Source of the DNA: an uncultured Pelagibacteraceae bacterium
Lineage (GTDB): Bacteria; Pseudomonadota; Alphaproteobacteria; Pelagibacterales; Pelagibacteraceae
Reading direction: 5' to 3'
Length of the DNA stretch: 64,000 bases
NCBI GenBank assembly: GCA_902615435.1
Contig: CACMOZ010000006.1
Span: 1 to 64,000, forward strand
Below, piece after piece: positions 3-38,244 of the stretch (position 1 is the first letter of the stretch; every line of letters begins with the position of its first letter). The notes under the pieces are model-generated. The model did not search any database. It had not been told where the DNA came from and worked only from the letters and a program-made list of their open reading frames with translations. The translations under genes and the position numbers were made by a program.

Positions 3-599
3 CTATTAGGACCTGATATATGCGCATTAGGCTATAATTCATTATGGATAAATAATCCTACAAATAAAAATCCAGTTTTAAAAAAAACACCACACGTTGA
101 TGCATGGACGGGCACAAGTGAAAATACAATATTTGTTAAACTGTTTCTCACTGACGTAGATAAATTTAATAGTGTTACTATGTACCCAGGAACTAATTTA
201 CAAGGGTTATTACCAGTAAAAAGTAGAACAGTTGATAAAAAATTAAATTTAAAATTTACAGGCATTAATTTAGATAATATTAAAAAAGGTGATTTATTAA
301 TTTGGCATGCATTGACACTTCATTCTACAACTGGTCATAGTGCTAAAAAACAAAGAGTTTCATTTACAACAAGATTTACTTCGACAGAAAGCAAATTTTC
401 ATCACAAGAAAGAGCACTTGGTTATGAAACAGTAACGGTTGGTCCTTTAAATCAAATAAAAAGAATAATTGGAAATGATAATTTACAACCACTTAGAACT
501 TATGGAGGCTATGTTGGTTCAGACAAGAGATTAAAAGATTTATACGATTTAAGTAATTATAATGATGATATTGAAAAATATATTTCATTATTAGAATAA
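3..599 (+). CDS. PhyH-like 2OG-Fe(II) dioxygenase, 5'-truncated by window edge
   Basis: The frame stays open to the left edge, so the start lies outside the window and the ORF-track Met at 180 is internal. The visible part has an HVD iron-binding pair just before the track start, a distal His in LIWHALTLHS and an Arg in QRVSFTTRF. This H-x-D...H...R layout fits the phytanoyl-CoA dioxygenase fold. Family members hydroxylate or otherwise oxidise small molecules with Fe(II) and 2-oxoglutarate; the substrate here is unknown. Its stop codon directly abuts the FkbM methyltransferase start, and a second oxygenase follows one gene later, so a sugar or lipid precursor of the surface polymer is a reasonable inferred substrate. 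Confidence 0.7.
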   Translation, partial: LLGPDICALGYNSLWINNPTNKNPVLKKTPHVDAWTGTSENTIFVKLFLTDVDKFNSVTMYPGTNLQGLLPVKSRTVDKKLNLKFTGINLDNIKKGDLLIWHALTLHSTTGHSAKKQRVSFTTRFTSTESKFSSQERALGYETVTVGPLNQIKRIIGNDNLQPLRTYGGYVGSDKRLKDLYDLSNYNDDIEKYISLLE

Positions 600-1376
600 A
601 TGTTTTTAAAAAAATTTCTTTATACTAATTTTCCAAAACAGTACGGTATGTTTTATGGCTATTTAGCTTTACCTATTAAACTTTTTTTATTTAAATTAAA
701 TATCGAAATTTTTTTTGGGAACAAAGATCAAGATAAGTGGGTAGTGAAAGAGGTGATGAATTATAAAAAAAAAGGGTATTTTATTGATCTCGCTGCAACT
801 GATGGAATACATGAAAATAATACTTACTTTCTTGAAAAAAAATTAAATTGGGATGGTATTTGTATTGAGCCAAATAAAGATTTTTTTAACAAATTAAAAA
901 AAAATAGAAATGTAAGTTGTTTTTGTGAGGTTATTGACAATAAAGTCAAAAAAATTAACTTTTTCCCAAATAAAGGCATCGGAGGTATTGTCGGAGAAGA
1001 ATTTGATAATAATTTTAATAAAAGGGAAAAACTTTTAAAAAGAGCTTTTGAGAATAATAGAATTGAGAAAAGAGAAACAAAGACAATAAGGGATATTTTA
1101 TTGATAAGCAAAGCTCCTAAAGTAATCGATTATTTTAGCTTGGATGTTGAAGGAGCTGAAGAAAATATAATTAAAAACTTCCCTTTCAATGAATATAAAA
1201 TATTGAGCATGACAATTGAAAGACCTACTCCAAAAATAAATGAAATTTTGAAGAGCAATGATATGTTATTTGTAAAAAACTATAAAGTTGATAGTTTTTA
1301 TATAAATAAAATTCTTAAAGATAAAATTGATATTGAGTTTGAAAAATTTTCGCAACTGGATAAAAAAAAATGGTAG
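600..1376 (+). CDS. FkbM family SAM-dependent methyltransferase
   Basis: The 258-residue protein has the FkbM pattern: a SAM-binding motif I near residues 60-70 (YFIDLAATDG), an acidic CIEPN turn near 88-92 and the family hallmark YFSLDVEGAE near 178-187. FkbM enzymes usually O-methylate sugars or polyketides, and copies are common in surface polysaccharide loci. The ATG directly follows the stop of the upstream oxygenase and its end overlaps the next gene by 7 bp, so it is translated within the same transcript. The acceptor is not predictable from sequence. Confidence 0.85.
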   Translation: MFLKKFLYTNFPKQYGMFYGYLALPIKLFLFKLNIEIFFGNKDQDKWVVKEVMNYKKKGYFIDLAATDGIHENNTYFLEKKLNWDGICIEPNKDFFNKLKKNRNVSCFCEVIDNKVKKINFFPNKGIGGIVGEEFDNNFNKREKLLKRAFENNRIEKRETKTIRDILLISKAPKVIDYFSLDVEGAEENIIKNFPFNEYKILSMTIERPTPKINEILKSNDMLFVKNYKVDSFYINKILKDKIDIEFEKFSQLDKKKW

Positions 1377-2155
1377 AAAAAAATATTAAATCTTTACTTA
1401 AAAATGGATACTTTATTTATAACGTTAAAGATAAAAAAAAACTTAATTTCTTAAAAGATGATATCTTTAAAGAGTCAAAGAAAATTTTAAAAGGGAAGAT
1501 CAAAAAAAATTTTTTCAATGAATTTCATAATATAAATATTTCTAATCAAAAATTAAATGAATATAGACTTAAATTAATGAAAAAAGTAAACGTTGGAGAA
1601 AAATTTTCGAAAAAAGGCTATGAAATCTTCCAAGAAATAATTCAAAAAATTTTTGGTCTAGATATCGTCGCTCAAAAAAATGTAAATCTCGTTATACAAA
1701 AGCCAAACGACCCTTCTCAAATTTCTGTTCACCGAGACGCCCCACCTAATTCAGACTATGAGTTAGTAGTTTGGGTACCATTAGTAAATACTTTCAAATC
1801 AAAAAATATGTATATTTTAGATAAAAATAACACTTCTAAACTTATAAAAAAAATTAAAAAATTTTCAAATAACAATAAAAAAAGTGAAAAAATAATGGAT
1901 TTTTATTATTCATTTGCATTTAACAAATCTAAAAAACATAAACTTAGATTTGGGCAGGCCTTAATTTTTTGGACAGGTTTAATTCATTGTGTACCTGAAA
2001 ATCAAGAAAAAGAAACTCGATGGTCTCTTAACTTTAGATTTAAAAATACATTTTCACCCTATGGCACAAAAGGTTTTCCAGACTATTTTGCTGTAGCTAA
2101 TTCATCTCCAATTACTAAACTAGCTTTAGAGAAGAAAGGTTCCGACTTTAATTGA
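1370..2155 (+). CDS. 2OG-Fe(II) oxygenase of the sporadic carbohydrate cluster type
   Basis: The 261-residue protein carries HRD at about residues 121-123, a distal His near 206 (WTGLIHCVPE) and an Arg in TRWSLNFRF, which is the Fe(II)/2-oxoglutarate facial triad plus co-substrate Arg. The pairing with the next gene matches, from memory, the TIGR04324/TIGR04323 (LIC12192) pair called sporadic carbohydrate cluster proteins. Its chemistry has not been described to my knowledge; hydroxylation or desaturation of a sugar intermediate is an inference. It overlaps both neighbours by a few bases. It is distinct from the truncated oxygenase at the window start. Confidence 0.7.
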   Translation: MVEKNIKSLLKNGYFIYNVKDKKKLNFLKDDIFKESKKILKGKIKKNFFNEFHNINISNQKLNEYRLKLMKKVNVGEKFSKKGYEIFQEIIQKIFGLDIVAQKNVNLVIQKPNDPSQISVHRDAPPNSDYELVVWVPLVNTFKSKNMYILDKNNTSKLIKKIKKFSNNNKKSEKIMDFYYSFAFNKSKKHKLRFGQALIFWTGLIHCVPENQEKETRWSLNFRFKNTFSPYGTKGFPDYFAVANSSPITKLALEKKGSDFN

Positions 2156-2538
2156 TGAAAAGCTATCATGCTTGGTTAGATATTGGAGCAGGTAAAGTAA
2201 TTACACAGCCTATGCAAAGAGTCCTATGTCAAAATTTTGCATCTAAATTGAATGGAAAAATAATATTTGAGTTAGGTGAAGATGTAGAGTTTAGTAAAGC
2301 AAAAATACAATTTAAAAAAATGTATACTACAGATTTAAAAGTTGATGGTTTTATTTTTTTAGGTCTTGAACAATTTATAAACCAAAAAAAACTTGAAATT
2401 AATTTAATAAAAGATGTTTTAAAAAAAGGATACGAACTTCACTATATCAGACAAAATTTATCTTTTTTTTCAATTACTGACTTCAAAAAAAGTGTAAATG
2501 ATTTGATTTTGTTCAGCGATTTGAATAAAAGTAACTAA
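2152..2538 (+). CDS. Sporadic carbohydrate cluster protein, LIC12192-like
   Basis: This 128-residue soluble protein starts inside the stop region of the 2OG oxygenase. Its features (an opening with QPMQRVLCQNF, a middle VDGFIFLGLEQF segment and a closing GYELHYIRQNLSF) resemble my recollection of the LIC12192 family, which sits beside 2OG oxygenases in scattered carbohydrate clusters. No catalytic motif or membrane segment is evident. The family has no known reaction. The overlapping start with the oxygenase suggests the two proteins act together. Family assignment is moderate. Confidence 0.6.
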   Translation: MMKSYHAWLDIGAGKVITQPMQRVLCQNFASKLNGKIIFELGEDVEFSKAKIQFKKMYTTDLKVDGFIFLGLEQFINQKKLEINLIKDVLKKGYELHYIRQNLSFFSITDFKKSVNDLILFSDLNKSN

Positions 2539-2549
2539 GAAAAATTGAA

Positions 2550-3674
2550 ATGAAAGAACACACAGATTTAATTCTTGATGGAACAAAAATAGCTTGGCAT
2601 AAAGATCGAATTGCTTCCTGGCAAAGAGGTGAAAAAATTGCCCCTATAACTATTGATATGGCTTTAACTAGAGCATGTAATTATTCCTGCTCGTTTTGTT
2701 ATGCAATGTTTCAAGAAAACGATAGAAAGATTATTACAAAAGATATAATTTATGGCTTTTTAGACGACTGTGCTGAAATTGGCGTAAAAGGTATAAGCTT
2801 TGTGTCAGATGGTGAGAGCACAATATCCCCAGTTTTTGCTGATGCTTGTAAAAGAGGTCATGAGCTTGGACTTTCAATGGCAGTTGGCACTAATGCCTTT
2901 GTTTTAACTAAATCCAAAGCTGAAGAAGTTTTACCATATTTAACTTATTTAAGAGTAAATTTTTCAGCTGGAGAAAAAAAAAGGTATTCAGAAATTATGG
3001 GAGTTAAAGAAAATCATTTTGAAAGAGTATGTCAAAACATCGAAGACATGATTGCAATTAAAAAAAGAGATAATTTAAAAGTTACTATTGGAATGCAAAT
3101 GGTATTAATGCCAGAAGATGAAGATCAAATTATACCATTAGCAAAACTTGGAAAAAAATTAAGGCCAGATTATTTAATAATAAAACATTGTACAGATAAT
3201 GAAGATGGTGATCTAGGAATAGATTATAATAAGTATGAGAAATTTTATGATAAACTTCGTGAAGCTGAGAAATATTCTGATGAAGACTATAAAGTTGTAG
3301 TCAAATGGTCTAAGATAAAAGACAAAGGTAATTCTGGAAGAAAATATCAAAGATGTTATGGAGCTCCATTTATGTTGCAAATGTCTGGCTCTGGTTTAGT
3401 AGCGCCTTGCGGAGCATTATTTAATGAAAAATATAAAAAATTTCACATTGGAAATATATGTGAAACAAGGTTTAAAGATATTTGGAACTCAGAAAGATAC
3501 TGGTCTGTAATGAATTACTTGTCATCAGAAAAGTTTAATGCTCAAAAAATGTGTGCCTCTTTATGTTTGCAACACAAAGTTAATGAAGCGCTAGACTCTC
3601 ATGTAAAAGGCGACATTGATTTATTAAATCAAGAGCTTCCGAAAAAAATACCTAAACATATTAATTTTATTTAA
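2550..3674 (+). CDS. Radical SAM/SPASM domain protein
   Basis: The 374-residue protein has the radical SAM cluster motif CX3CX2C at residues 43, 47 and 50 (ACNYSCSFC) and a C-terminal Cys-rich SPASM region (RCYGAP, VAPCGALF, MCASLCLQH) that should hold one or two further Fe-S clusters. SPASM enzymes modify peptides or oxidise sugars and alcohols by radical chemistry. The context of oxygenases and a nonulosonic acid synthase favours a carbohydrate substrate, but that is inference. A gap of 11 bp separates it from the LIC12192-like gene. It is one of three radical SAM proteins in this locus. Confidence 0.85.
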   Translation: MKEHTDLILDGTKIAWHKDRIASWQRGEKIAPITIDMALTRACNYSCSFCYAMFQENDRKIITKDIIYGFLDDCAEIGVKGISFVSDGESTISPVFADACKRGHELGLSMAVGTNAFVLTKSKAEEVLPYLTYLRVNFSAGEKKRYSEIMGVKENHFERVCQNIEDMIAIKKRDNLKVTIGMQMVLMPEDEDQIIPLAKLGKKLRPDYLIIKHCTDNEDGDLGIDYNKYEKFYDKLREAEKYSDEDYKVVVKWSKIKDKGNSGRKYQRCYGAPFMLQMSGSGLVAPCGALFNEKYKKFHIGNICETRFKDIWNSERYWSVMNYLSSEKFNAQKMCASLCLQHKVNEALDSHVKGDIDLLNQELPKKIPKHINFI

Positions 3675-3691: not shown

Positions 3692-4573
3692 CTGAAAAAG
3701 AAATACAACAAAATCGTTTTGCTAGGGGCATCAGGCTTTCTTGGAAGCTATATCTTTAAAAGACTTTATTTGCAGGAAAAAAATATAATAAGACAAAGTA
3801 GAAAAAAAAGAAAAAATTTTATAAAAATTGATTTATTAAATAAACGAGAAGTTTTTAAAAAACTAAAAAAAATTAATCCTAAAATTATAATAAATACATC
3901 CGGTATGACTGATGTAGAAAAATGCGAAAATAGTTTTCACTTGGCTTTTAAGTCAAATGTAGTTTCAATTCAGAATGTTTGTGAATATGTTAAGACTTAC
4001 AATAAAAATTGTTATTTTATAAATATTTCTACAGATCATTTATATAACGGAAAAGGTCCTCACAAAGAAGAAAATATAAATTTAATTAATAATTACGCAC
4101 TCACAAAGTATTTAGGTGAGGTAATGTCCTCAAAGATAGATTCGATAAATCTTAGAGTAAATTTTTTTGGTAATAACTTTATTAAAAAAACAGGTTTAGT
4201 AAATTGGTTTATAAATGCATGTAAAAGAAAAAAAAAAATATTTTTATACAAAGATATATTATTTTCACCTCTTGAAATAAATTCCCTTACAGAAATAATT
4301 TCAAAAATAATTAATAAAAGGATTAGTGGTACTTATAATTTAGGATCAAATAATGGAATATCTAAAGCAGAATTTCTTAATTTGATTGGTAAAAATTTAA
4401 AACTTAATTTGAAATTTGCAAAGATCACAAGCTCCAGTAATATTAAGAACAGGGCAAAAAGACCTAATGATATGAGACTCAATAATAAGAAGTTTGAAAA
4501 AAAATTTAAGATTAAATTACCAAATATATATCAAGAAATTCAAAAATTTTGTATAAATTATAATAATTACTAA
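3692..4573 (+). CDS. RfbD-like SDR sugar-nucleotide reductase, probable non-ATG start
   Basis: This extended-SDR protein is similar to dTDP-4-dehydrorhamnose reductase: a glycine-rich GASGFLGS nucleotide-binding motif, INTSGMTDVEKCE, a STDHLY serine segment and NYALTKYLGE containing the YxxxK pair. The tracked start at 3719 (TTG) would cut into the first beta strand. Extending to CTG at 3692 restores KKKYNKIVLLGASG; no in-frame ATG or GTG lies between the upstream stop and the motif. It probably reduces a 4-keto sugar nucleotide. The gene ends with its stop overlapping the next ATG. Confidence 0.72.
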   Translation: MKKKYNKIVLLGASGFLGSYIFKRLYLQEKNIIRQSRKKRKNFIKIDLLNKREVFKKLKKINPKIIINTSGMTDVEKCENSFHLAFKSNVVSIQNVCEYVKTYNKNCYFINISTDHLYNGKGPHKEENINLINNYALTKYLGEVMSSKIDSINLRVNFFGNNFIKKTGLVNWFINACKRKKKIFLYKDILFSPLEINSLTEIISKIINKRISGTYNLGSNNGISKAEFLNLIGKNLKLNLKFAKITSSSNIKNRAKRPNDMRLNNKKFEKKFKIKLPNIYQEIQKFCINYNNY

Positions 4574-5640
4574 TGATAACATTTAAGATTAATAAAAAAA
4601 GAATTGGAGAAAACTATCCGACATATTTTATTGCTGATATAGCAGCAAATCATGACGGGTCATTAACGAGAGCAAAAAAACTTATAAAGCTCTCTGCTTT
4701 AGCGGGCGCCGATGCAGTCAAATTTCAACATTTTAAAGCTGAGACAATTGTTAGTGATTATGGCTTTAAAAAATTGGGTAAATTTTCTCACCAAAAAAAG
4801 TGGAAAAAGTCAGTTTTTGAGATTTATAAAGCTGCGAGTATAAATAATAAATGGAATTCAGAGTTATATAAAACTTGTAAAAAATACAAAATAGACTTTT
4901 TAACTGCACCCTATGATCTTGAATATATAGATCAAGTTTCAAAATTTATATGTGCCTATAAAATAGGATCTGGAGATATAACATGGCATGAGGCAGTGAA
5001 AAAAATCTCAAAAAAAAGAAAACCAGTTATATTAGCATCGGGTGCATCTAATATTGAAGATGTAAAAAAAGCAATCTCCTTAATATATAAGTACAATAAA
5101 AAAATTGTTTTAATGCAATGCAATACCAACTACACAGCAAGTGAAGAAAATTATAAATTTATTAATTTGAATGCCTTAAACACTTTTAAAAAGATATTTA
5201 AAAATAAAATAGTTTTAGGTCTAAGCGATCATACTTTTGGAAGTGAAACTGTTTTGGGCGCAATATCTTTAGGTGCTAGAGTTGTTGAAAAACACTTTAC
5301 AGATGACAACAATAGAAATGGTCCTGACCACAAATTTTCAATGAACCCAAATACTTGGAGGGAAATGATTGATTCATCAAGAAGATTAGAAAAATCTTTT
5401 GGAAATGGAAAAAAAATAGTTGAAAAAAATGAGATGGATACTGTAATAATTCAAAGAAGATCTTTAAGAGCATCAAAAAAAATCGCTAAAAATACAGTTT
5501 TGAAACATAAACACATAATAGCGTTAAGACCGTGCCCAAAAAATGCAATTTCTCCTGATCAGATTGAAAAAGTTTTAGGAAAAAAAACTCTTAAAAATAT
5601 AAATTTTCATGAACATTTTACATGGAAAAAAATAAGATAA
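4573..5640 (+). CDS. NeuB-family nonulosonic acid synthase
   Basis: The 355-residue protein has the NeuB TIM-barrel motifs near the N-terminus (IADIAANHDGSLTRAK, GADAVKFQ), the YKIGSGDI and SDHTFG segments, VEKHFT, and a C-terminal SAF domain (QRRSLRASKKIAKN). NeuB-type enzymes condense phosphoenolpyruvate with a six-carbon N-acylated sugar to give a nine-carbon sialic, legionaminic or pseudaminic-type acid. It differs considerably from the second NeuB at 12861, so the two probably use different sugars. Which acid is made cannot be told from sequence. Confidence 0.85.
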   Translation: MITFKINKKRIGENYPTYFIADIAANHDGSLTRAKKLIKLSALAGADAVKFQHFKAETIVSDYGFKKLGKFSHQKKWKKSVFEIYKAASINNKWNSELYKTCKKYKIDFLTAPYDLEYIDQVSKFICAYKIGSGDITWHEAVKKISKKRKPVILASGASNIEDVKKAISLIYKYNKKIVLMQCNTNYTASEENYKFINLNALNTFKKIFKNKIVLGLSDHTFGSETVLGAISLGARVVEKHFTDDNNRNGPDHKFSMNPNTWREMIDSSRRLEKSFGNGKKIVEKNEMDTVIIQRRSLRASKKIAKNTVLKHKHIIALRPCPKNAISPDQIEKVLGKKTLKNINFHEHFTWKKIR

Positions 5641-6263
5641 TAATTATACCAACTTTTAATGAACTTAGATCTATTAAAAGAGTCATTAGAGATTGCCCAA
5701 ATAGTTGGAACATATTAGTAGTAGATGATGCAAGCAGTGACGGTACTAATTTATGGTTAAGAAAAAAAAAAATTTCTTTTTTATTAAATAAAAAAAATCA
5801 AGGTTATGAAAGATCTTTAATTAGAGGTTTTAAGCAAGTTATTAAAAATAAAAAAATAAGATATTTAGCAACTATGGACGCAGATGGAGAACATAATCCA
5901 AAATACTTAAAAAAAATGATAAACCATATATCAAAAAAAAATTTAGATATGGTAATTTCTGAGAGAAATAGCTACAACAGATTGAGCGAGGCTTTAGTGG
6001 GAAAAATATTTAAATTAAAGTATGGTATAAAAGATCCTTTATCTGGATATAAAGTTTATAAAGTTTCTGCACTTAAAAAAATTATAAAAAATATTAAAAC
6101 AAATTCTTTTTTAGTAGATATAATTTGTAAATTTAACTCTTTGTCAAAAAAATTAGGAGTGATAAATTCTCAAAGTAGACAGAGAATTTTTGGCCGTCCT
6201 AAAGTAGGTTTTAATCTTTTCGTCAATATAAAGATTATTCTTTTACTAAGATTAATATTTTAA
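5622..6263 (+). CDS. Glycosyltransferase family 2, DPM1-like
   Basis: The 213-residue GT-A protein has IIIPTFNELRSIKRV at the N-terminus, VVDDASSDGT near residues 33-42 and the metal-binding TMDADGEH near 85-92. This matches the short dolichyl-phosphate-mannose-synthase-like branch of GT2, which transfers a sugar from a nucleotide carrier to a polyprenyl phosphate. No C-terminal membrane domain is present apart from a short hydrophobic tail (IKIILLLRLIF). It overlaps the NeuB gene by 19 bp in another frame. Donor and acceptor are unknown. Confidence 0.8.
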   Translation: MEKNKIIIIPTFNELRSIKRVIRDCPNSWNILVVDDASSDGTNLWLRKKKISFLLNKKNQGYERSLIRGFKQVIKNKKIRYLATMDADGEHNPKYLKKMINHISKKNLDMVISERNSYNRLSEALVGKIFKLKYGIKDPLSGYKVYKVSALKKIIKNIKTNSFLVDIICKFNSLSKKLGVINSQSRQRIFGRPKVGFNLFVNIKIILLLRLIF

Positions 6264-6279
6264 AATTAAAAAAAACTAT

Positions 6280-7284
6280 ATGTTTGATAAAAAAACTATA
6301 TTTATTACCGGGGGCACGGGCTCTTTTGGAAAAGCATTTACCAGAAAAATTTTAGAAGATTTCAACCCACTAAGAATTGTTATATTCAGCCGAGACGAGT
6401 TCAAACAACATTTGATGATGAAAGACCCATTTTTTAGCAAGCACCAAGATAAGATAAGGTATTTGATAGGAGATGTAAGGGATAAAGAAAGATTAAAATT
6501 AGCTTTTCAAATGGAAATAGACATCTTAATTCATGCTGCAGCTTTAAAACAAGTAGAGACATCTGAGTACAACCCTTTTGAAACTGTAAAAACAAATGTT
6601 TTAGGAGCTCAAAATTTAATTGAATTAGCAATACAAAAAAAAATTAAAAAAATAATTGCTCTAAGTACTGACAAAGCTGCATCTCCAACAAACTTATACG
6701 GAGCAACAAAATTGGTTTCAGATAAATTATTTGTAAATGCAAATAATTATGGCTCTATTTCAAAATTTGCAGTTGTTAGATATGGTAATGTATTCAATAG
6801 CAGAGGATCTGTGGTTGAAGTTTTTAGATCAATGAAGGAAAAAAACATTTTCAAAGTTACAGATAAAAAAATGACCAGATTCAACATTACTTTGGACCAG
6901 AGCATTGAGTTCGTCATAAAGTCCCTAAAAAATATGTTTGGAGGTGAAATATTTGTTCCAAAAATACCATCTTATAAATTAACTGATCTAGTGAAGGCAA
7001 TTTCAAACAATGGAAAAATTAAAATTGTAGGAATAAGGCCTGGAGAAAAACTTCATGAAGAAATGGTAACCTCTTCTGACTCCCTTAATTGCTATGAACT
7101 AAATGACCAATTCATCATATTGCCCTTATCTTTTAAATTTTTAAAATGGAACATTAAAAATTTTTTAAATAAATACAAAACCTCAAAACCAAAAAAATGT
7201 AGAGAAGGCTTCTCTTACAATAGTGTAGAAAATAAAAATTTCCTTAGAATAAAAGAAATTCAAAAATTACTTAAAAAATACTAA
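6280..7284 (+). CDS. pseB: UDP-GlcNAc 4,6-dehydratase, PseB/FlaA1-like
   Basis: The 334-residue SDR has TGGTGSFGKAFTRKIL at the N-terminus, FSRDEFKQ, a VRDKERL stretch, HAAALKQV and STDKAASPTNLYGATK, all characteristic of PseB/CapD-type dehydratases. PseB converts UDP-GlcNAc to the UDP-4-keto-6-deoxy-L-arabino sugar that starts pseudaminic acid; close relatives start other dideoxy-amino sugars. PseC, PseG and PseH are not recognisable nearby, so a pseudaminate end product is unproven. The cytidylyltransferase that follows could serve the same route. Confidence 0.8.
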   Translation: MFDKKTIFITGGTGSFGKAFTRKILEDFNPLRIVIFSRDEFKQHLMMKDPFFSKHQDKIRYLIGDVRDKERLKLAFQMEIDILIHAAALKQVETSEYNPFETVKTNVLGAQNLIELAIQKKIKKIIALSTDKAASPTNLYGATKLVSDKLFVNANNYGSISKFAVVRYGNVFNSRGSVVEVFRSMKEKNIFKVTDKKMTRFNITLDQSIEFVIKSLKNMFGGEIFVPKIPSYKLTDLVKAISNNGKIKIVGIRPGEKLHEEMVTSSDSLNCYELNDQFIILPLSFKFLKWNIKNFLNKYKTSKPKKCREGFSYNSVENKNFLRIKEIQKLLKKY

Positions 7285-7302
7285 TCAAAAAATTATATTC
7301 TA

Positions 7303-7965
7303 ATGATCAGCAAAAATGATATAGGAATTTTTTCTATTGCAAGACTTTCAAGCAAAAGACTAAAAAAAAAAATGATTAGAAAATTTTCTAATACAACTTT
7401 AACTGATATAATTTTATCTAAACTATCTAAACTTGGTAACAATGCATTTTTTGCAGGGCATGAGAACATCTTTAAAAAAAAAAGCATTAAACATAAAGTT
7501 AGATTTGTACAAAGAAGCAAGTTATCTTCTATTTCCAATAATTCTTACGCACAAATATTCTCTTTTTTAAAAAAAGAAAAATTTAATTATTTACTTTTAA
7601 TTAATCCATGCATGCCTAACCTTAGAATATCTACTATAAAAAAATTTATTAAAAAAGTTCAAAAACTGAATGGCCCTGCTTTTACAGTTTTTGAAGAAAA
7701 AAATTATTTTTTAAACAAAAAAAATATTCCGCTTAATTTCAAAAAATTAAAAAAAAATGAAACATTAGATACTAAAAAAGTAAAATCGATAAAATCATTT
7801 GCTCATGTTTTTTATTTTTTTGAAAAAAAATATTTTTTAAAGAATGGGCACTATTGGAATTGGAGTAAGCTAAATTACGTTGAACTACAAAAAACGAACG
7901 AATTTTTAGATATAGATAATCTTAAAGATTTTAAAGAAGCTGAATTAGTTTGGAAAAAATTCTAA
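7303..7965 (+). CDS. Diverged CMP-sugar cytidylyltransferase (NeuA/SpsF-like)
   Basis: The 220-residue protein opens with IFSIARLSSKRLKKK, resembling the nucleotide-binding ARxxSxRL loop of NeuA/SpsF enzymes, continues with YLLLINPCMPNLR in the place of the usual LLQPTSPLR and ends with FLDIDNLKDFKEAE, similar to the DIDxxxDFxxAE ending of CMP-sialate synthetases. The overall match is weak and the sequence is lysine-rich, so activity is less certain than for the two other cytidylyltransferases. It lies between PseB and a glycosyltransferase, consistent with activating a nonulosonic acid. Confidence 0.62.
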   Translation: MISKNDIGIFSIARLSSKRLKKKMIRKFSNTTLTDIILSKLSKLGNNAFFAGHENIFKKKSIKHKVRFVQRSKLSSISNNSYAQIFSFLKKEKFNYLLLINPCMPNLRISTIKKFIKKVQKLNGPAFTVFEEKNYFLNKKNIPLNFKKLKKNETLDTKKVKSIKSFAHVFYFFEKKYFLKNGHYWNWSKLNYVELQKTNEFLDIDNLKDFKEAELVWKKF

Positions 7966-10958: not shown

Positions 10959-11954
10959 ATGAAAAAAATTTTAGTTACTGGATCTGAAGGGTTTATAGGA
11001 TCACACTTAGTTGAAACATTATTGAAAAAAAAATACAAAGTAAAAGCCTTAGTTCAATATAATTCATTTAATTCTATCGGATGGATTAATGACTTAATTA
11101 ATAAGGATAGTAAAAACTTGCAGATTTTTTTTGGCGATATAAGAGATATGTCTTTTATAGATAAAATTATGCAAGATTGTGATGCTGTTTTTAATTTAGC
11201 AGCGTTGATTGGTATTCCTTACTCATATCATGCACCAACTTCTTATTTTGAAACCAATGTTAAAGGGACTTTAAATATATTAGAAGCAGCAAAAAAAAAT
11301 AAAATTAAAAAAGTAATTATTACATCAACTAGTGAGGTTTATGGGACAGGACAGTATTTGCCAATTGATGAAAAACATCCTTTAGTAGGTCAATCACCAT
11401 ATTCGGCTTCAAAAATTTCAGCAGATCAATTAGCAATGTCTTATTATTATTCGTTTGATCTACCAGTTACAATTATACGACCTTTTAATACTTATGGGCC
11501 CAGACAGTCATTAAGAGCAATAATACCTACGATTATACAACAAATGTTAATAAACAAAAAAAGAGAGATAAATTTAGGCAATGTAAAAACTACACGAGAT
11601 TTTAGTTACGTGTCCGATACCGTCGATGGCTTTGTTAAATCTATAAATTCAAAATCTGATGGTGAAATTATTAATCTTGGTTCAGGTTTCGAAATTAGTA
11701 TTGAAGAACTTGTAAGAGAGATCGGACACATATTAGGAGAAAAAGTAATCATAAAAAAAGATAAAAAAAGATTTAGACCAAAAAATAGCGAGGTAGAACG
11801 ATTAAAATCTTCTAATATAAAAGCTAAAAAAATATTAAACTGGAGTCCTAAATTTACTGGAAAAAAAGGTTTAAGAGAGGGAATCAAAAAAACATTAACT
11901 TGGTTTTTAAAAAATAAACAATTTTTACCTAAAAAAAACTCTTATAATATTTAA
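10959..11954 (+). CDS. legB: NAD-dependent 4,6-dehydratase LegB
   Basis: The 331-residue extended SDR matches LegB closely as I remember it: GSEGFIGSHLVETLL at the N-terminus, the diagnostic YNSFNSIGWINDL, NLAALIGIPYSYHAPTSYF, TSTSEVYGT, SPYSASKISADQLA and RPFNTYGPRQS. LegB makes the 4-keto-6-deoxy intermediate from GDP- or UDP-GlcNAc in legionaminic acid synthesis. It opens a run of legionaminate-type genes (LegI, LegG, PtmE-like, LegF) that follow without gaps; LegC lies further downstream at 23907. Confidence 0.85.
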   Translation: MKKILVTGSEGFIGSHLVETLLKKKYKVKALVQYNSFNSIGWINDLINKDSKNLQIFFGDIRDMSFIDKIMQDCDAVFNLAALIGIPYSYHAPTSYFETNVKGTLNILEAAKKNKIKKVIITSTSEVYGTGQYLPIDEKHPLVGQSPYSASKISADQLAMSYYYSFDLPVTIIRPFNTYGPRQSLRAIIPTIIQQMLINKKREINLGNVKTTRDFSYVSDTVDGFVKSINSKSDGEIINLGSGFEISIEELVREIGHILGEKVIIKKDKKRFRPKNSEVERLKSSNIKAKKILNWSPKFTGKKGLREGIKKTLTWFLKNKQFLPKKNSYNI

Positions 11955-11958
11955 TTAA

Positions 11959-12864
11959 GTGAAGTCCCAAAAAAATTTTTTTTTAAGCATTGGTTATTTT
12001 GCAGATGGTAATTGGGCTTATCAAAATTTAATAAAAATATTTAATGATAAGTCAATTAATATAAAGTTTATTTGTTTAAGAAAAAAACCTGATAAAAAAA
12101 TTAAAATTTTATCAAAAAAAAAAAATATACCGTGCTTCAAATTTGAGAATGTAAATGACGGAAATTCAATAGAAAAAATTAAAAGTTACAAATGTGATTA
12201 TCTTATCTCAATGTCATACGATCAAATTTTTGGAAAAAAAATATTATATTTAATGAAAAATAAGATTATTAATTGTCATGCTGGCTTATTACCATTTTAT
12301 AGGGGAAGAAATATTTTAAATTGGGCTTTAGTCAATGGAGAAAAATACTTTGGTGTAACAACACATTTAATTAACGATAAGATTGATGAAGGTAATATAA
12401 TTAAACAAATAAGAATCAAAATTAATAAATTTGACACTTATGAAACTTTATTAAAAAAAGCAGAAATAAACTGCTCAAATTTACTTTATTCGACTATAAA
12501 AATAATTCAGAAAGGAAAATTTTCTACATTTTCTCAAAAAAAAATTTGTCGAAAAGGGTCATATTTTAGAAAAAGAAATTCAGAAGATGAAAAAATAATT
12601 TGGTCAAAAAGTGCTAAAGAAATTTATAATTTGATAAGAGGAATATCTTATCCTGGACCAAACAGTAAAACAATTATAAATAAAAGAGTACTTAGAATAA
12701 AAAAATCAAAAATCATTAAATTCAAAAATACAAAAAAATTTAAAGTTGGAGAAATTATTAAAAAAACAAAAAATCACTTTATAGTTAACACTGGTTCTGG
12801 AAAAATAAAAATATTAGATTGGTCTCCAAAATTGAAATTAAAAACAGGTCAAGTTTTTTTATGA
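11959..12864 (+). CDS. Sugar N-formyltransferase (formyl_transf_N domain), GTG start
   Basis: The 301-residue protein shares the N10-formyl-tetrahydrofolate fold with methionyl-tRNA formyltransferase and ArnA: IINCHAGLLPFYRGRN holds the catalytic Asn and His, and GVTTHLINDKIDEGNI supplies the conserved Asp. A C-terminal FMT-like segment follows. Sugar formyltransferases act on amino sugars such as Qui4N or Fuc4N. Sitting between LegB and LegI, where an N-acyltransferase (LegH) would be expected, it may formylate the 4-amino group before chain extension. The GTG at 11959 follows the legB stop by 4 bp. A run of 12 As lies at 12114-12125. Confidence 0.8.
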   Translation: MKSQKNFFLSIGYFADGNWAYQNLIKIFNDKSINIKFICLRKKPDKKIKILSKKKNIPCFKFENVNDGNSIEKIKSYKCDYLISMSYDQIFGKKILYLMKNKIINCHAGLLPFYRGRNILNWALVNGEKYFGVTTHLINDKIDEGNIIKQIRIKINKFDTYETLLKKAEINCSNLLYSTIKIIQKGKFSTFSQKKICRKGSYFRKRNSEDEKIIWSKSAKEIYNLIRGISYPGPNSKTIINKRVLRIKKSKIIKFKNTKKFKVGEIIKKTKNHFIVNTGSGKIKILDWSPKLKLKTGQVFL

Positions 12865-13859
12865 AAACAATCATCATAGCTGAGGCAGGCGTTAATCATA
12901 ATGGAAATTTTAGAAATGCTAAAAAATTAATTTTAGAGGCTAAAAAAAGTGGAGCTGATATTGTAAAATTTCAAAAATTTAAAGCTGAAAAATTAGTAAC
13001 AAAAAAAGCTAAATTAGCTAATTATCAAAGAAAAAATTACAAAAATATTTCACAATATCAAATGCTTAAGAAGCTTGAACTAAAAGACTCTGACTATAAA
13101 AAACTTTATCAATATTCAAAAAAAATAAAAATTAAGTTTCTCTGCTCATGTTTTGACAAAGAATCGCTTGCTTTTCTTCAGTTTTACAAAAATGATTTTA
13201 TTAAAATTCCATCAGGCGAAATAAATAATTTTCCACTTTTAAAGTATGCAGGGAATTTAAAAAATAAAGTCATATTATCCTCTGGTATGTCAACAATTGA
13301 TGAAATAACTTTAGCAATTAATACAATTATAAAATCTGGGACCCCAAAAAAAAATATATATTTATTGCACTGTAATTCTGATTATCCGACAAATATTAAG
13401 GATGTAAATTTAAGAGCATTTGATCAATTAAAAGAAAAGTTTGGTTTAAAACTAGGTTATTCTGATCACACAACAAGTCAAGAAGTTCCAATAATTGCGG
13501 TAGCTATGGGAGCTAAAATTATAGAAAAACATTTTACATTAAACAAAAACTTGAAAGGTCCAGATCATGCGGCAAGCTTCAATCCAAGAGAATTTAAAAC
13601 CCTAGTTGAGAATATCCGAAAAACAGAAATCATTTTAGGAAAAAATAAAAAAATAGTTACTGCTAGCGAAAAGAGAAATAAATTATCAGTGCGTAAATCT
13701 ATAGTTGCTAAAAGAGCTATAAAGAAGGGGGATAAGTTCAGTACTAATAATATTACCATAAAAAGACCAGGCAACGGTATTTCCCCGTTAAAATTTTTTA
13801 AAATAATTGGTAAAAAGTCTAAATATTCATTTAAACAAGACGATCTAATTAAAGTATGA
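12861..13859 (+). CDS. legI: Legionaminic/N-acetylneuraminic acid synthase family protein (NeuB/LegI)
   Basis: The track start at 12819 lies inside the formyltransferase; ATG at 12861 gives MKTIIIAEAGVNHNG, the canonical NeuB start, and overlaps the previous stop by 4 bp. The 332-residue enzyme has DIVKFQKFKAE, IKIPSGEINNFP, ILSSGMSTIDE, LLHCNSDYPT, LGYSDHT and KHFTLNKNLKGPDH, then a SAF domain (VRKSIVAKRAI). It condenses phosphoenolpyruvate with a 2,4-diamino-type or N-acetylated hexose. The adjacent LegG and LegF favour a legionaminic-type product over sialic acid. Confidence 0.87.
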   Translation: MKTIIIAEAGVNHNGNFRNAKKLILEAKKSGADIVKFQKFKAEKLVTKKAKLANYQRKNYKNISQYQMLKKLELKDSDYKKLYQYSKKIKIKFLCSCFDKESLAFLQFYKNDFIKIPSGEINNFPLLKYAGNLKNKVILSSGMSTIDEITLAINTIIKSGTPKKNIYLLHCNSDYPTNIKDVNLRAFDQLKEKFGLKLGYSDHTTSQEVPIIAVAMGAKIIEKHFTLNKNLKGPDHAASFNPREFKTLVENIRKTEIILGKNKKIVTASEKRNKLSVRKSIVAKRAIKKGDKFSTNNITIKRPGNGISPLKFFKIIGKKSKYSFKQDDLIKV

Positions 13860-14995
13860 AAAAAATTGCAATAGTAACTAGTACTAGAGCAGATTATTCA
13901 ATCTTAAAAAATTTAATCTCGCATCTTAGAGAAAATAAAAAAATGAATTTGAAGTTAATAATCAGTGGAACCCATTTAAACAAAAAATATGGATATACAA
14001 TTAAAGAAATAGATAATCTAAATGCTATAAATCATAAAAAAATTGACATTAATATAAAAACCTCATCAGAGGAAAATATCTCAAAAAGTTTTAGTTTAGG
14101 TGTAAAAAAATTTTCAAGTTATCTAAAAAAAAACAAAACTGATCTTGTCATCTTACTAGGTGATAGATATGAAATATTAGCTTTTGCAATATCTTGTTTA
14201 ATTTCAAGAATTCCTATTGCCCACATTCATGGAGGTGAAATAACACAAAGTGTAATTGACGATTCAATTAGACACTCAATTACAAAAATGTCTCAAATTC
14301 ACTTTGTAGCAAATAAAATTTACAAAAAAAGAGTAGCTCAACTTGGAGAAGAAGACTCACGTATATTTATAGTTGGAGGTCTTGGTGCTTATAATTTGTC
14401 TATAGAGAAATTTCAATCTAAAAAGAAAATTTTAAAAAAAATAGGTTTACCATATTTAAAAAAGTATATTTTAATTTGCTTCCACCCCGAAACATTAAAT
14501 AAAAATTCAAATTTAAAAAATTTTAAAAAAATTTTGAATGCTCTTAAGTCTTTTAAAGACCAATTTTTTTTATTTACAATGCCTAATTCTGACCAAGAAA
14601 GTGATTATATTTATCAAGAAATTAAAAAATTTATTTCGAATTCTCCAAATTCAAAATTAATTAAATCTCTTGGAAATAAATATTACAGTTTTCTAAAACA
14701 CTCAGAATTAATTATAGGTAATTCTTCGAGCGGAGTTCTTGAAGCTCCATCCGCTAAAGTACCTTCGTTAAATATTGGCAATAGGCAAACCGGTAGAGTA
14801 ATGGCTAATTCTGTTCTCAATTGTGATTTTAATGAAAAAAACATAAAGAAAAAAATTAGCTATCTATTAAAAATGAAAAAAAAATTCTCCTACAAAAACC
14901 CTTATTATAATGGAAAAACACCATTAAAGATTGTAAAAATTTTAGAAAATTTAAATTTTAATAATTTAATCAATAAAAAGTTTAGGGACATCTGA
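13856..14995 (+). CDS. legG: UDP/GDP-N-acetylglucosamine 2-epimerase, hydrolysing (NeuC/LegG)
   Basis: The 379-residue GT-B-fold hydrolase has VTSTRADYSILKNL at the N-terminus, LLGDRYEILAFA, HIHGGEITQSVIDDSIRHSITK and ELIIGNSSSGVLEAPS, all typical of hydrolysing 2-epimerases. It removes the nucleotide while inverting C2, giving the six-carbon substrate of the NeuB-type synthase encoded just upstream. Its ATG overlaps the legI stop by 4 bp. Sequence alone does not separate NeuC from LegG; LegB and the PtmE-like gene tip it to LegG. Confidence 0.85.
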   Translation: MKKIAIVTSTRADYSILKNLISHLRENKKMNLKLIISGTHLNKKYGYTIKEIDNLNAINHKKIDINIKTSSEENISKSFSLGVKKFSSYLKKNKTDLVILLGDRYEILAFAISCLISRIPIAHIHGGEITQSVIDDSIRHSITKMSQIHFVANKIYKKRVAQLGEEDSRIFIVGGLGAYNLSIEKFQSKKKILKKIGLPYLKKYILICFHPETLNKNSNLKNFKKILNALKSFKDQFFLFTMPNSDQESDYIYQEIKKFISNSPNSKLIKSLGNKYYSFLKHSELIIGNSSSGVLEAPSAKVPSLNIGNRQTGRVMANSVLNCDFNEKNIKKKISYLLKMKKKFSYKNPYYNGKTPLKIVKILENLNFNNLINKKFRDI

Positions 14996-14997
14996 CC

Positions 14998-16053
14998 ATG
15001 AAAAATCCATTAATTTCATCCAATATTTCAATATCTCAATCAATGAAAAAACTCAGTGAAACTGGACAAAGATGTTTAGTAATAGTTGATATTAAGAAGA
15101 AATTGTTAGGAACCCTTACTGATGGGGATATAAGAAGAAACATTTTATCTGGATATGAATTATCTGATAGTATTAAAAAAATTTATAATAAAAAACCAAT
15201 TTACTTCTTCGAAAAAAATTTTTCTGTTGAAAATGCTAAAAAAATTTTTATTAGTAAGAATATAAATCTAATTCCTATTATCAATTCTCAGAGGAAAGTA
15301 GTTAATTGCCTTACCTGGGATGATGTATTCGAAAAACCCTCCAAAAAAAGTATTATGCCTACTTTAAGCACCGTTATTATGGCAGGCGGGAAGGGCATAA
15401 GAATGAAACCTTTCACAGATGTTCTTCCAAAACCTTTAGTACCAATTAATAATAAACCAATCATAGAACATATAATAGAAAATTTTCTTAACTTTAATCA
15501 AAATAAGTTTTTTTTAACAATTAGTCAAAAAAGCAAAATTTTAAAATATTATTTTAAAGATAAAAATACGAAAAGTTACAAAATTAATTTTGTTACAGAA
15601 AAAAAACCTTTAGGGACAATTGGAGGTTTAAAACTGCTTGAACAGAAACTTACAAGTAATTTCTTTTTAGCTAATTGCGATATTTTGGTTGATGCAAACT
15701 ATCAAGATATCTTTGAACTTCATAAATCTAGGAATAATGATGTAACAATTGTAGCCTCTATAAAAGAGTTTAATATTCCTTATGGAGTATGTGAAATTGG
15801 AAAAAAAGGTTTACTTAAAAATATTAAAGAAAAACCTAATTTTCAATATCTAGTAAATACAGGTTTGTATTTGGTTAATAAGAAAATAATTAATTTGATA
15901 CCAAAAAACAAATACTTTGATTTTACAGATTTGATTAATGTACTTCTAAAAAAGAAGAAAAAAATTGGGGTTTTTCCAATCGCCGATCAAAAATGGATAG
16001 ATGTTGGTCAATGGGACATTTTTGAAAAAAATTTAAAAAAAATTAAAAATTAA
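14998..16053 (+). CDS. ptmE: CBS-domain nucleotidyltransferase, PtmE-like (GlcN-1-P guanylyltransferase type)
   Basis: The 351-residue protein joins two N-terminal CBS motifs (about residues 5-115, including GTLTDGDIRRNIL) to a nucleotidyltransferase domain starting near 121 with VIMAGGKGIRMKPFTDVLPKPL. The same architecture occurs in Campylobacter PtmE, which makes GDP-glucosamine for legionaminic acid. The partners PtmF and PtmA are not seen in the window, so the feeding route is incomplete. Placed 2 bp after legG and abutting legF. The exact nucleotide used is inferred. Confidence 0.78.
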   Translation: MKNPLISSNISISQSMKKLSETGQRCLVIVDIKKKLLGTLTDGDIRRNILSGYELSDSIKKIYNKKPIYFFEKNFSVENAKKIFISKNINLIPIINSQRKVVNCLTWDDVFEKPSKKSIMPTLSTVIMAGGKGIRMKPFTDVLPKPLVPINNKPIIEHIIENFLNFNQNKFFLTISQKSKILKYYFKDKNTKSYKINFVTEKKPLGTIGGLKLLEQKLTSNFFLANCDILVDANYQDIFELHKSRNNDVTIVASIKEFNIPYGVCEIGKKGLLKNIKEKPNFQYLVNTGLYLVNKKIINLIPKNKYFDFTDLINVLLKKKKKIGVFPIADQKWIDVGQWDIFEKNLKKIKN

Positions 16054-16754
16054 TGTACCGTGGTAAAAAAATAGTAGCATTAATTCCAGCAAGAGCCGGA
16101 TCGAAAGGGTTAAAAAATAAAAATATAAAAATTTTTAAAAAAAAACCACTTATATACTGGACAATTAAAGCAGCGCAAACTTCCAAATATATTGATGATA
16201 TTATTGTAACTACTGACTCTGAAAAAATATTAAATTTATCTAAAAAATTTAAAATTAAAAATTTAATCAAAAGGCCAAAAAAATTAGCTTTAGATAATAC
16301 TGCAATCAAAGAAGTAATTTTTCACAGTTTTAAATGGATAAAAAAAAAACTAACAAATAATTATGAGTATTTTATTTTGTTGCAACCTACCTCTCCATTA
16401 AGAAACAAAGACCATATTAACAAATTTGTAAGAACTTTTTTTTCAAAAAAAACAAAAAATAGTGAAACCATGATTTCCGTTGCTGCTGCTCCGGTAAAAG
16501 CTAGTTGGTTAATGAGAAAGAGAGGAAAATATTTAAATTTTCTTAAAAAAAATAAGAAAAATTATTTAAGACAAGATTTAGAAAAATTTTATTTACCAAA
16601 CGGAGCTATCTATTTTTCAAAAATTACAACCTTCAAAGGATCTTTTTATGGTAATAAAACAATGTTTTATGAAATGGATATCAAGAGCTCAATTGATATT
16701 GACAATTTACATGATTTTAAAAAAGGTGTAAAAATAAAAAATATTTTGGAGTAA
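16053..16754 (+). CDS. legF: CMP-nonulosonate cytidylyltransferase (NeuA/LegF)
   Basis: The 233-residue enzyme has the complete CMP-sialate synthetase start LIPARAGSKGLKNKN (about residues 9-23), IIVTTDSEKI, LLQPTSPLRNKDHI and a DIDNLHDFK end. It couples the nine-carbon acid to CMP, the activated form used by transferases. As the last enzyme after LegI, LegG and PtmE it is the best candidate for CMP-legionaminate formation. It shares a single base with the preceding stop. Confidence 0.87.
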   Translation: MYRGKKIVALIPARAGSKGLKNKNIKIFKKKPLIYWTIKAAQTSKYIDDIIVTTDSEKILNLSKKFKIKNLIKRPKKLALDNTAIKEVIFHSFKWIKKKLTNNYEYFILLQPTSPLRNKDHINKFVRTFFSKKTKNSETMISVAAAPVKASWLMRKRGKYLNFLKKNKKNYLRQDLEKFYLPNGAIYFSKITTFKGSFYGNKTMFYEMDIKSSIDIDNLHDFKKGVKIKNILE

Positions 16755-23282: not shown

Positions 23283-23910
23283 AACTTTGATAATTGATTA
23301 CGGTATAGGAAACCTTTTAAGTTTAACCAGGGCGTTGGAATATGTAGGTTCCGAAGTAATTATCTCAGATGATCATAGAAAAATCTTTGACGCATCACAT
23401 ATTATATTACCTGGTGTGGGTGCATTCAAAAAAGCTGTAGAGGTGTTGAAAGAAAAAAAATTAGACGAGATAATTCAAAAAACTTTAGAAAAAAAAAGAA
23501 ATTTTTTAGGAATTTGTCTAGGAATGCAAATTTTGTTAAAAAAAAGTTACGAACATGGAGAAACCAAAGGGCTTGGAATTTTTGATGGTGAAGTGAAATC
23601 TATAAAAACTTTCAAAAATCCAATTGATATAAAAATTCCAAATATTGGCTGGTACAATTTGATTCCCGAATATGAAAAGAAGGAATTTAATATTTTTAAA
23701 AATTTAAATGATAAAGACAATTTTTATTTTGTTCATTCTTTTCTCACAGATATTAAAAATAGTAATGAAAAAAATTTTTCAATTCAATATTCTAATATAA
23801 AAATACCAGCAATAATTTCTAAAAATAATATATTTGGTTTTCAATTTCATCCTGAAAAAAGTGGAAAAGCAGGATTAAAACTTTTAAAAAACTTTACTAA
23901 TTTGGAGTGA
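23272..23910 (+). CDS. hisH2: HisH-like glutamine amidotransferase (HisH2)
   Basis: The 212-residue class I glutaminase carries the nucleophile Cys82 in GICLGMQ, an N-terminal YGIGNLLSL, a PGVGAF oxyanion-type motif and the His-Glu pair in FQFHPEKSG. It would hydrolyse glutamine and pass ammonia through the HisF-like partner to WbpG. The start overlaps hisF2 by 11 bp and the end overlaps legC. No other histidine gene is in the window, consistent with a sugar role. Confidence 0.85.
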   Translation: MKTKTLIIDYGIGNLLSLTRALEYVGSEVIISDDHRKIFDASHIILPGVGAFKKAVEVLKEKKLDEIIQKTLEKKRNFLGICLGMQILLKKSYEHGETKGLGIFDGEVKSIKTFKNPIDIKIPNIGWYNLIPEYEKKEFNIFKNLNDKDNFYFVHSFLTDIKNSNEKNFSIQYSNIKIPAIISKNNIFGFQFHPEKSGKAGLKLLKNFTNLE

Positions 23911-37985: not shown

Positions 37986-38060
37986 GGGCGTGTAGTTCAG
38001 TGGTAGAACGCTACGTTGACATCGTAGAGGTCATAAGTTCAATTCTTATCACGCCCACCA
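37986..38060 (+). tRNA. tRNA-Val (anticodon GAC), CCA encoded
   Basis: The 75-nt cloverleaf has a 7-bp acceptor stem (GGGCGTG/CACGCCC), an anticodon stem CTACG/CGTAG around loop TTGACAT giving anticodon GAC, a T loop TTCAATT and an encoded 3' ACCA. It begins at the base after the stop of the last glycosyltransferase, so there is no spacer. It may be processed from the same long transcript or from a promoter within that gene. Confidence 0.93.
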
Positions 38061-38124: not shown

Positions 38125-38244
38125 TTGCCTGGTAATTTTTGCGAAGGGGCCACACCCGATCCCATTCCGAACTCGGAAGTTAAGTCCTTCAGCGCCGATG
38201 GTACTTTGTCTTAAGATATGGGAGAGTAGGACGTTGCCAGGCTT
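38125..38244 (+). rRNA. rrf: 5S ribosomal RNA, isolated from 16S/23S
   Basis: The roughly 119-nt sequence has terminal helix TGCCTGG/CCAGGC, the conserved CCACACCCGATCCCATTCCG segment, CGGAAGTTAAGTCCTTCAGCGCCGATGGTACT and GGGAGAGTAGGACGTTGCCAGG, all typical of bacterial 5S. No 23S is seen within the 38 kb to its left in this window. In SAR11, HVR2 is known to separate 23S and 5S. The rpmJ start is only about 8 bp after the 5S end, with no terminator between. Confidence 0.93.

Follow-up and report, generated by a model that had tools for sequence, protein, structure and literature searches.

A conserved oxygenase–LIC12192 gene pair as the core of a putative sugar-tailoring cassette in an uncultured Pelagibacteraceae bacterium

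The conserved core of the genes at the start of the analyzed contig is a pair, consisting of a SpoChoClust_2 oxygenase (SPO2) and a LIC12192-like protein (LIC). The window, i.e., the whole stretch of 64,000 nucleotides that was analyzed, opens with this pair among other putative sugar-modifying genes. The stretch around the pair is tentatively regarded as the remaining 3′ portion of a cassette for sugar tailoring within a SAR11 surface-polysaccharide island, with the SPO2-LIC unit as its core; the chances of this reading are considered close to even, though slightly below.

Gene content at the contig start

The five genes named in the sequence-only reading of this DNA (oxygenase, FkbM, oxygenase, LIC12192-like and SPASM) were all confirmed on the plus strand, the first one being cut at the contig start. 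Likewise, an RmlD-like reductase and a NeuB family gene were found directly after the five-gene set (Table 1).

Table 1. Features identified at the start of the window
Feature	Position	Strand	Profile matches and remarks
OX1, PhyH-type 2OG-Fe(II) oxygenase, remote SpoChoClust_2	3-599	+	TIGR04324, PF05721
FkbM-family methyltransferase	600-1376	+	PF05050 41.1 bits (cut-off 22.7), TIGR01444 29.7 bits
SPO2, SpoChoClust_2 2OG-Fe(II) oxygenase	1370-2155	+	TIGR04324 193.1 bits (cut-off 150)
LIC, LIC12192-like protein	2155-2538	+	TIGR04323 18.4 bits, E 0.0016 (cut-off 55)
rSAM-A, radical SAM/SPASM enzyme	2550-3674	+	PF04055 52.0, PF13186 31.9
RmlD-like gene	3719-4573	+	follows rSAM-A
NeuB family gene	4573-5640	+	PF03102 235.8

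The N-terminus of OX1 is missing, since base 1 of the window is base 1 of the contig (G000:C6). Both oxygenases matched TIGR04324, OX1 weakly with 41.7 bits (cut-off 150, not reached), and OX1 reached 24.5 bits for PF05721 (cut-off 22). The HVD motif and the distal H/R motifs are present in its translation. Neither the thiamine-diphosphate (TPP) enzyme nor the LIC-linked methyltransferase (MT) of related loci was seen in the window, where the upstream part is missing; this speaks against the cassette reading, as does the LIC score below the TIGR04323 cut-off. Other TPP enzymes were sought in the same genome, and a third match was located on contig C4; it belongs to another sugar cluster, for which no tie to the contig start was established.

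The SPO2-LIC pair

Relatives were collected with one peptide pattern in a contig scan, of which 80 out of 123 were kept. The 112 LIC matches comprised 65 distinct copies after removal of copies more than 85 percent alike. In 63 of these 65 copies SPO2 is encoded immediately upstream of LIC on the same strand, with a gap ranging between −7 and 34 bases; in the window, the stop codon of SPO2 and the start codon of LIC overlap as TGATG. The two exceptions are L054, where LIC lies at the edge of the stretch and a further locus of the same genome (L216) has SPO2 upstream, and L068, where SPO2 is located 1.7 kb upstream. In genome G046 SPO2 runs into an assembly gap, so LIC cannot be judged there.

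For the 19 loci holding all five families, the distances of SPO2 and LIC were found to correlate at r 0.91, and those of SPO2 and TktC, MT or HldE at r 0.79–0.82. The SPO2 residues H121, D123, H206 and R217 match the 2-His-1-carboxylate iron site and the 2OG arginine; across 66 sequences, their alignment columns are conserved in 66, 63, 66 and 66, respectively. The LIC protein of the window is a remote member of TIGR04323 and belongs to a divergent branch together with those of L043, L054, L067 and L068.

The surrounding cassette and its shared slot

In related loci, the pair is surrounded by a sugar cassette containing a two-subunit TPP enzyme, a SAM methyltransferase (MT), HldE and SDRs. The TPP enzyme was identified in the stretch read of 54 of the 65 distinct LIC copies and is absent from that of the other 11, some of which are located on short contigs. 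MT was found within 9 kb of 50 of the 65 copies. As a control, TktC was detected in 2 of 14 NeuB-anchored loci. Since LIC itself was used to collect these sets, the TPP and MT frequencies hold for LIC loci and not for all such cassettes. A fusion of LIC with MT occurs in four loci (L049, L055, L058 and L061).

The MT contexts were read for 34 loci out of 40 MT matches. The slot between TktC (transketolase) and MT was analyzed in 42 distinct loci (from 90). The slot was occupied by SPO2-LIC alone in 21 loci, by SPO2-LIC together with a second type of radical SAM enzyme (rSAM-B) in 5, and by a radical SAM enzyme alone in 10 (rSAM-B in 9, rSAM-A in 1); none of these was present in 6. The pair and the radical SAM enzymes thus share one slot. 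The window contains the two next to each other, and the order of SPO2-LIC followed by a radical SAM gene recurs in other loci.

LIC cassettes are common in Bradyrhizobium. As of 2016, the bradyrhizose genes were described as not yet known, with an 11-gene candidate cluster in photosynthetic strains (PMC4743980). The Bradyrhizobium LIC cassette as a route to bradyrhizose is a lead only.

The radical SAM/SPASM enzyme

Radical_SAM and SPASM domains are both present in rSAM-A, together with a CNYSCSFC (CX3CX2C) motif, and the motif columns C43, C47 and C50 are invariant in 10 out of 10 sequences. A comparison with PDB sequences gave nothing at 0.001. Relatives of rSAM-A occur in 10 of the order's 297 genomes and in 44 of 398 genomes of the phylum. 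Of these 398 genomes, 35 have MT and 26 have both genes, compared to about 4 expected by chance when kinship is ignored. The TPP enzyme was found near the gene in 7 of 7 close relatives of the order and in 10 of the 20 phylum loci read (20 of the 44 genomes). LIC or SPO2 was found at none of these 20 loci, so the tie of the radical SAM enzyme to the pair is loose.

Within 9 kb and on the same strand, the window type was detected for 4, the second type for 6 and either type for 9 of the 65 LIC copies. The earlier suggestion that the SPASM enzyme co-occurs with the pair therefore stands in part: it is a real partner, whose gene order recurs, and it is an optional one. DesII and BlsE, the models of radical SAM/SPASM sugar enzymes, gave weak matches to relatives of rSAM-A and rSAM-B, far below the cut-offs.

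Predicted fold of LIC

AlphaFold models of two LIC proteins, that of the window (pLDDT 87.2) and a canonical one, were compared with known structures using Foldseek and VIA-align. Both show the serine-recombinase catalytic fold, with best Z values of 13.8 (window) and 14.7 (canonical). The matches on ranks 1 to 30 are all serine recombinases or archaeal and IS607-type relatives, and the next unrelated structures followed at Z 7.7 and 7.3.

The predicted fold of the whole protein thus resembles the catalytic domain of resolvases and large serine integrases. In contrast to these enzymes, LIC has no DNA-binding part and no recombinase domain: the window protein has 128 residues, all of which are covered by the catalytic fold, and the length ranges between 127 and 135 residues in all members. 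Aligned by range and not by residue, S12 of phiC31 corresponds to the invariant Arg10 in the canonical protein and to Leu9 in the window protein, if strand 1 is ungapped. This register suggests that the catalytic serine is probably absent from LIC. A sequence signal is also lacking, as the LIC profile showed no significant similarity to 20 resolvases (HHalign probability 0.1 to 0.5 percent). The best match among PDB sequences had an E value of 0.012. No match was found in phages searched with one canonical SAR11 LIC protein or in plasmids searched with one Azospirillum LIC protein. We infer that LIC is a serine-recombinase-fold protein which is not a recombinase and is an obligate partner of SPO2.

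Alternative explanations

The sequence-only reading had proposed one five-gene module tailoring the nonulosonic acid made by the adjoining NeuB. The five genes do lie close together on one strand, and a NeuB gene was found in the stretch read of 5 of the 65 distinct LIC copies (4 loci). However, among 297 genomes of the order, TIGR04323 was detected in 23 and the NeuB type of the window in 15, with no genome on both lists; both are encoded in the genome of the window itself, whose LIC falls short of the score needed for listing. NeuB has conserved neighbors of its own: a GT2 gene adjoins 11 of 14 NeuB relatives and PseB is near 10 of 14, whereas LIC or the oxygenase was found near none of the 14. 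The window NeuB and its neighbors are a separate module, and the postulated co-occurrence of NeuB with the pair was not borne out. The five genes as one unit were rejected as well, since the whole set is absent from every other locus read; the nearest is found in G117 (L043), with a PDH-like pair, RmlD-like, rSAM-A, SDR, SPO2 and LIC. Given the missing NeuB link and the optional SPASM enzyme, the tailoring of a nonulosonic acid is unsupported and very unlikely, while support exists for a gene set that tailors an unusual sugar and has the LIC-oxygenase pair as its core. Regarding the slot, SPO2-LIC and the radical SAM enzyme might carry out the same step in an oxygen-dependent and an oxygen-independent way, as do HemF and HemN. 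The shared TktC–MT slot is consistent with such a swap, which is nevertheless rated as unlikely: five loci keep both, and the six loci with neither indicate that the slot is not essential. Furthermore, a COX1-family (haem-copper) oxidase is encoded in all eight rSAM-B-only genomes tested, so these hosts are not strict anaerobes and the swap is unsupported.

Two further explanations concern LIC itself. It could be a catalyst in a resolvase fold, acting for example on a sugar phosphate, with SPO2 taking its product. The polar residues R10, Q19, Q22, N23, R27, E43, R81 and E100, all invariant in canonical members, would fit an active site; in the window type, however, Q22 is the single invariant column (56 sequences), which is odd for a conserved active site, and this role is considered doubtful. 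A true recombinase that has decayed, switching for instance the O-antigen locus, would account for the predicted fold of LIC. This is highly improbable in view of the missing DNA-binding domain, the apparent replacement of the catalytic serine by register, the methyltransferase fusions in four loci and the constant position behind the oxygenase.

Proposed function and comparison with known systems

For the preferred reading, with SPO2-LIC as the core of a sugar-tailoring cassette, the following course is conceivable. The two-subunit TPP enzyme (transketolase- or PDH-E1-like), present in related loci and not in the window, would build or extend a sugar. LIC, as a partner rather than an enzyme, would hold SPO2 or hand over its substrate, and SPO2 would oxidize one C–H position. 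A methyltransferase may cap the product, elsewhere the LIC-linked one and in the window perhaps FkbM, and the radical SAM/SPASM enzyme may carry out a second or alternative C–H reaction. In its most far-reaching form, the proposal is that LIC12192 is a serine-recombinase fold diverted from DNA to serve as an obligate sugar-oxygenase subunit, and that together with SPO2 it is interchangeable with the radical SAM/SPASM enzyme for one C–H oxidation in a surface sugar, higher-carbon or branched, that is widespread and built by a transketolase. This form is speculative and less likely to be right than wrong by a clear measure.

The NCBIfam families SpoChoClust_1 and SpoChoClust_2 (TIGR04323 and TIGR04324) are likewise described as neighbors in sporadic carbohydrate clusters. 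The window SPO2 lies above and the window LIC far below the curated cut-off (Table 1), and the family names come without a function, a fold or a transketolase/radical SAM context. In literature listings nothing was found on "sporadic carbohydrate cluster" or LIC12192, nor on the cassette or the fold.

The lincomycin octose route includes the transaldolase LmbR and the isomerase LmbN (PMC5854111). That route resembles the LIC cassette in its kinds of genes, namely a pentose-phosphate-type C–C bond-forming transferase beside a GmhA-like isomerase, a kinase/nucleotidyltransferase (HldE) and SDRs. Unlike in the described lincomycin route, a two-subunit transketolase/PDH-E1-like enzyme replaces the transaldolase in the LIC cassette, and the oxygenase-LIC pair or a radical SAM enzyme is located in the middle.

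With these results, a family known only as "sporadic carbohydrate cluster protein" gains a predicted fold and a cassette, along with an obligate partner and a role that can be tested. If the proposal is true, a DNA-recombinase fold would serve sugar chemistry, and one operon slot would be filled by either of two unrelated kinds of oxidation. The findings point to SAR11, cyanobacteria, Azospirillum and Bradyrhizobium as organisms in which such surface-sugar chemistry may be sought.

Conservation of the oxygenase-LIC pair

All five genes that the sequence-only reading had packed into one module were found in the window, the first of them, the PhyH-like oxygenase OX1, being truncated by the contig start (see table). 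The window covers the first 64 kb of contig C6 (70,690 bases), in a draft genome of 1.04 Mb with a completeness of 86.75 percent. By kinship searches and its named relatives, this genome falls within the SAR11 group (Pelagibacterales).

Loci of the LIC12192-like protein (LIC, TIGR04323) were collected from order genomes and with one peptide pattern across 84,980 species (80 of 123 relatives kept). The surroundings were read in six frames and near-copies were removed, resulting in 65 distinct LIC copies. The 2OG-Fe(II) oxygenase SPO2 (TIGR04324) was located immediately upstream in 63 of them; one exception lies at the edge of the stretch read, the other has SPO2 1.7 kb apart. Wherever the upstream region was readable, no LIC without a nearby SPO2 was read. 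According to the record titles, the hosts comprise SAR11, SAR116, Rhodospirillales, Azospirillum, Skermanella, Bradyrhizobium, beta- and gammaproteobacteria, cyanobacteria, Bdellovibrio and others. The correlation of SPO2 and LIC distances (r 0.91, 19 loci) was the highest among the tested pairs involving either protein (others 0.77 to 0.82). The conserved unit is the SPO2-LIC pair, with near-obligate adjacency, and the window pair is a divergent member of a gene pair that NCBIfam has already named. Within the order (297 genomes), TIGR04324 was found in 31 genomes at E 1e-10, 22 of them above the cut-off.

In L049, L055, L058 and L061 a single protein of approximately 350-385 residues combines the LIC domain with a SAM methyltransferase, and in unfused loci the same methyltransferase (MT) is a free gene downstream of LIC.

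Features of the window
Feature	Position	Remark
OX1	3-599	PhyH-like oxygenase
FkbM methyltransferase	600-1376	
SPO2	1370-2155	
LIC	2155-2538	
rSAM-A	2550-3674	radical SAM/SPASM enzyme
First NeuB group	3719-7965	RmlD-like, NeuB, GT2, PseB (above cut-off), weak CMP-transferase
Second NeuB set	10959-16754 and 23907-25070	LegB-like dehydratase, formyltransferase, NeuB (above cut-off), NeuC (above cut-off), nucleotidyltransferase, PseF-like, LegC-like aminotransferase
Further radical SAM genes	17949-19544 and 28348-29508	one B12-binding type, one SPASM-like type (by reading only)
tRNA	37986-38057	at end of sugar island
5S rRNA gene	38128-38242	at end of sugar island

Predicted fold of LIC

A resolvase-like arrangement was expected from the sequence pattern of LIC and was then tested by modeling. 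The window model, built on a 56-row alignment, reached a pLDDT of 87.2 and a pTM of 0.82. Its first 39 PDB rows in Foldseek were serine recombinases or related archaeal/IS607-type proteins (best E 1.3e-3); VIA-align gave Z 13.8 (rmsd 2.8, 123 aligned). Ranks 1-30 all fell into these groups, and the next value dropped to 7.7. For a canonical member (L073) the pLDDT was 93.5, the best Foldseek E 1.9e-5 and the VIA-align Z 14.7 (rmsd 2.6, 122 aligned); here, too, these groups filled ranks 1-30, ahead of a fall to 7.3. More weight goes to the canonical model, since the alignment behind the window model has 10-30 percent identity. LIC is thus predicted from these models to have a serine-recombinase-type fold. 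A sequence relationship between LIC and resolvases was not seen with HHalign. Going by aligned ranges alone, the phiC31 nucleophile S12 would coincide with an arginine that is invariant in canonical LIC.

Gene surroundings and the variable slot

Upstream of SPO2-LIC there is usually a two-subunit thiamine-diphosphate (TPP) enzyme, either a split transketolase or PDH-E1-like. A TPP enzyme lies within the stretch read of 54 of the 65 LIC copies and MT at most 9 kb away in 50; HldE-like, GmhA-like and SDR genes are frequent neighbours. As a control, the transketolase subunit TktC was found at 2 of 14 NeuB loci. A protein of about 543 residues without an NCBIfam match is encoded just upstream of the split transketolase (L073:5284-6912 and similar loci) and is divided in L094 (2455-3174 and 3146-4243). 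By eye, its start resembles a HAD phosphatase, and its second part may be a kinase.

MT, searched without reference to LIC, was present in 35 of 398 phylum genomes. The genes between TktC and MT on one strand were defined as a slot, and all loci read gave 42 distinct cases: SPO2-LIC in 21, SPO2-LIC followed by a second radical SAM type (rSAM-B) in 5, rSAM-B alone in 9, rSAM-A in 1 and none of these in 6. The subset found through MT, minus near-copies of the other set, contained rSAM-B in 7, rSAM-A in 1 and none in 3. Therefore, SPO2-LIC and a radical SAM enzyme can each occupy the slot singly or share it, the pair in that case preceding the radical SAM gene. A simple replacement of an oxygen-dependent by an oxygen-independent enzyme is unsupported, as haem-copper oxidase was present in 8 of 8 radical-SAM-only genomes checked; microaerobic use of the radical SAM version in these genomes is conceivable.

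rSAM-A was found in 44 of the 398 phylum genomes, 26 of which also carry MT. A TPP enzyme stands beside it at 10 of 20 phylum loci read and at 7 of 7 in close order relatives. The proposal that a SPASM enzyme is a partner of the pair held in part: the order of pair and then radical SAM gene recurs, with the A-type enzyme in the window and in the Methylophilaceae locus L080, but LIC or SPO2 was near rSAM-A at none of the 20 phylum loci. The rSAM-A, MT and TPP-enzyme data support a common pathway with a loose, optional link to SPO2-LIC.

A 383-residue protein without an NCBIfam match adjoins rSAM-A and an acetolactate-synthase-like enzyme (L039:6256-7407, L040). In genome G117, two short genes flanking the radical SAM gene (L043:9134-9775 and 11024-11320) resemble its halves by eye. 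The rSAM-A proteins of L044 and L045 keep CX3CX2C and lack the SPASM cysteines aligned to APCG and MC..LC of the window enzyme.

NeuB genes and the sugar island

A tailoring route for a nonulosonic acid, as suggested from the sequence alone, would join the pair to the neighbouring NeuB. In the order-wide search (297 genomes), TIGR04323 was found in 23 genomes, the window radical SAM enzyme in 10 and the window NeuB in 15. The LIC and NeuB lists had zero genomes in common, and the NeuB and radical SAM lists shared the window's own genome alone; two genomes, G117 and G125, stood on both the LIC and the radical SAM list, the two genes lying on separate contigs in G125. LIC or SPO2 was near NeuB relatives at 0 of 14 loci, and these relatives have neighbours of their own: an adjacent GT2 gene (11/14), PseB-like (10/14) and RmlD-like (4/14). 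Given the missing list overlap and these neighbours, the NeuB genes and the oxygenase-LIC genes of the region are separate units that stand next to each other. The nonulosonic acid interpretation did not hold.

PseC, PseH and PseG are not alongside the first NeuB group, whose product could possibly be a nonulosonate with a 7-hydroxyl in place of the 7-amino group. The second NeuB set is fuller and reads as legionaminate- or neuraminate-type, formyltransferase included. About 38 sugar genes in a row directly precede the tRNA and the 5S rRNA gene. The island is thereby closed like SAR11 hypervariable region 2, which PMC2217521 places between 5S and 23S rRNA, with mainly cell-surface genes. A second sugar cluster with acetolactate-synthase-like and PDH-E1-like enzymes lies on contig C4 of the same genome (approximately 63-80 kb, L154).

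Proposed function

Searches of the open-access literature yielded no account of the radical-SAM slot or the transketolase cassette, nor of the fold predicted for LIC or its near-obligate place beside SPO2. The iron and 2OG residues are in place in the window SPO2, from which hydroxylation or oxidation of a C-H bond is expected. For LIC, which was read near SPO2 wherever the upstream region was readable and is sometimes fused to MT, the likeliest role is substrate binding or the bridging of oxygenase and methyltransferase. In the window, FkbM may stand in for MT, and OX1 and rSAM-A may contribute additional oxidations.

In its kinds of enzyme, the LIC cassette resembles the lincomycin octose route, in which, according to PMC5854111, LmbR joins a C3 donor and ribose 5-phosphate into an octulose phosphate; the same source gives octulose 8-phosphate production as known for transketolases. 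The product of the cassette would be a higher-carbon or branched sugar.
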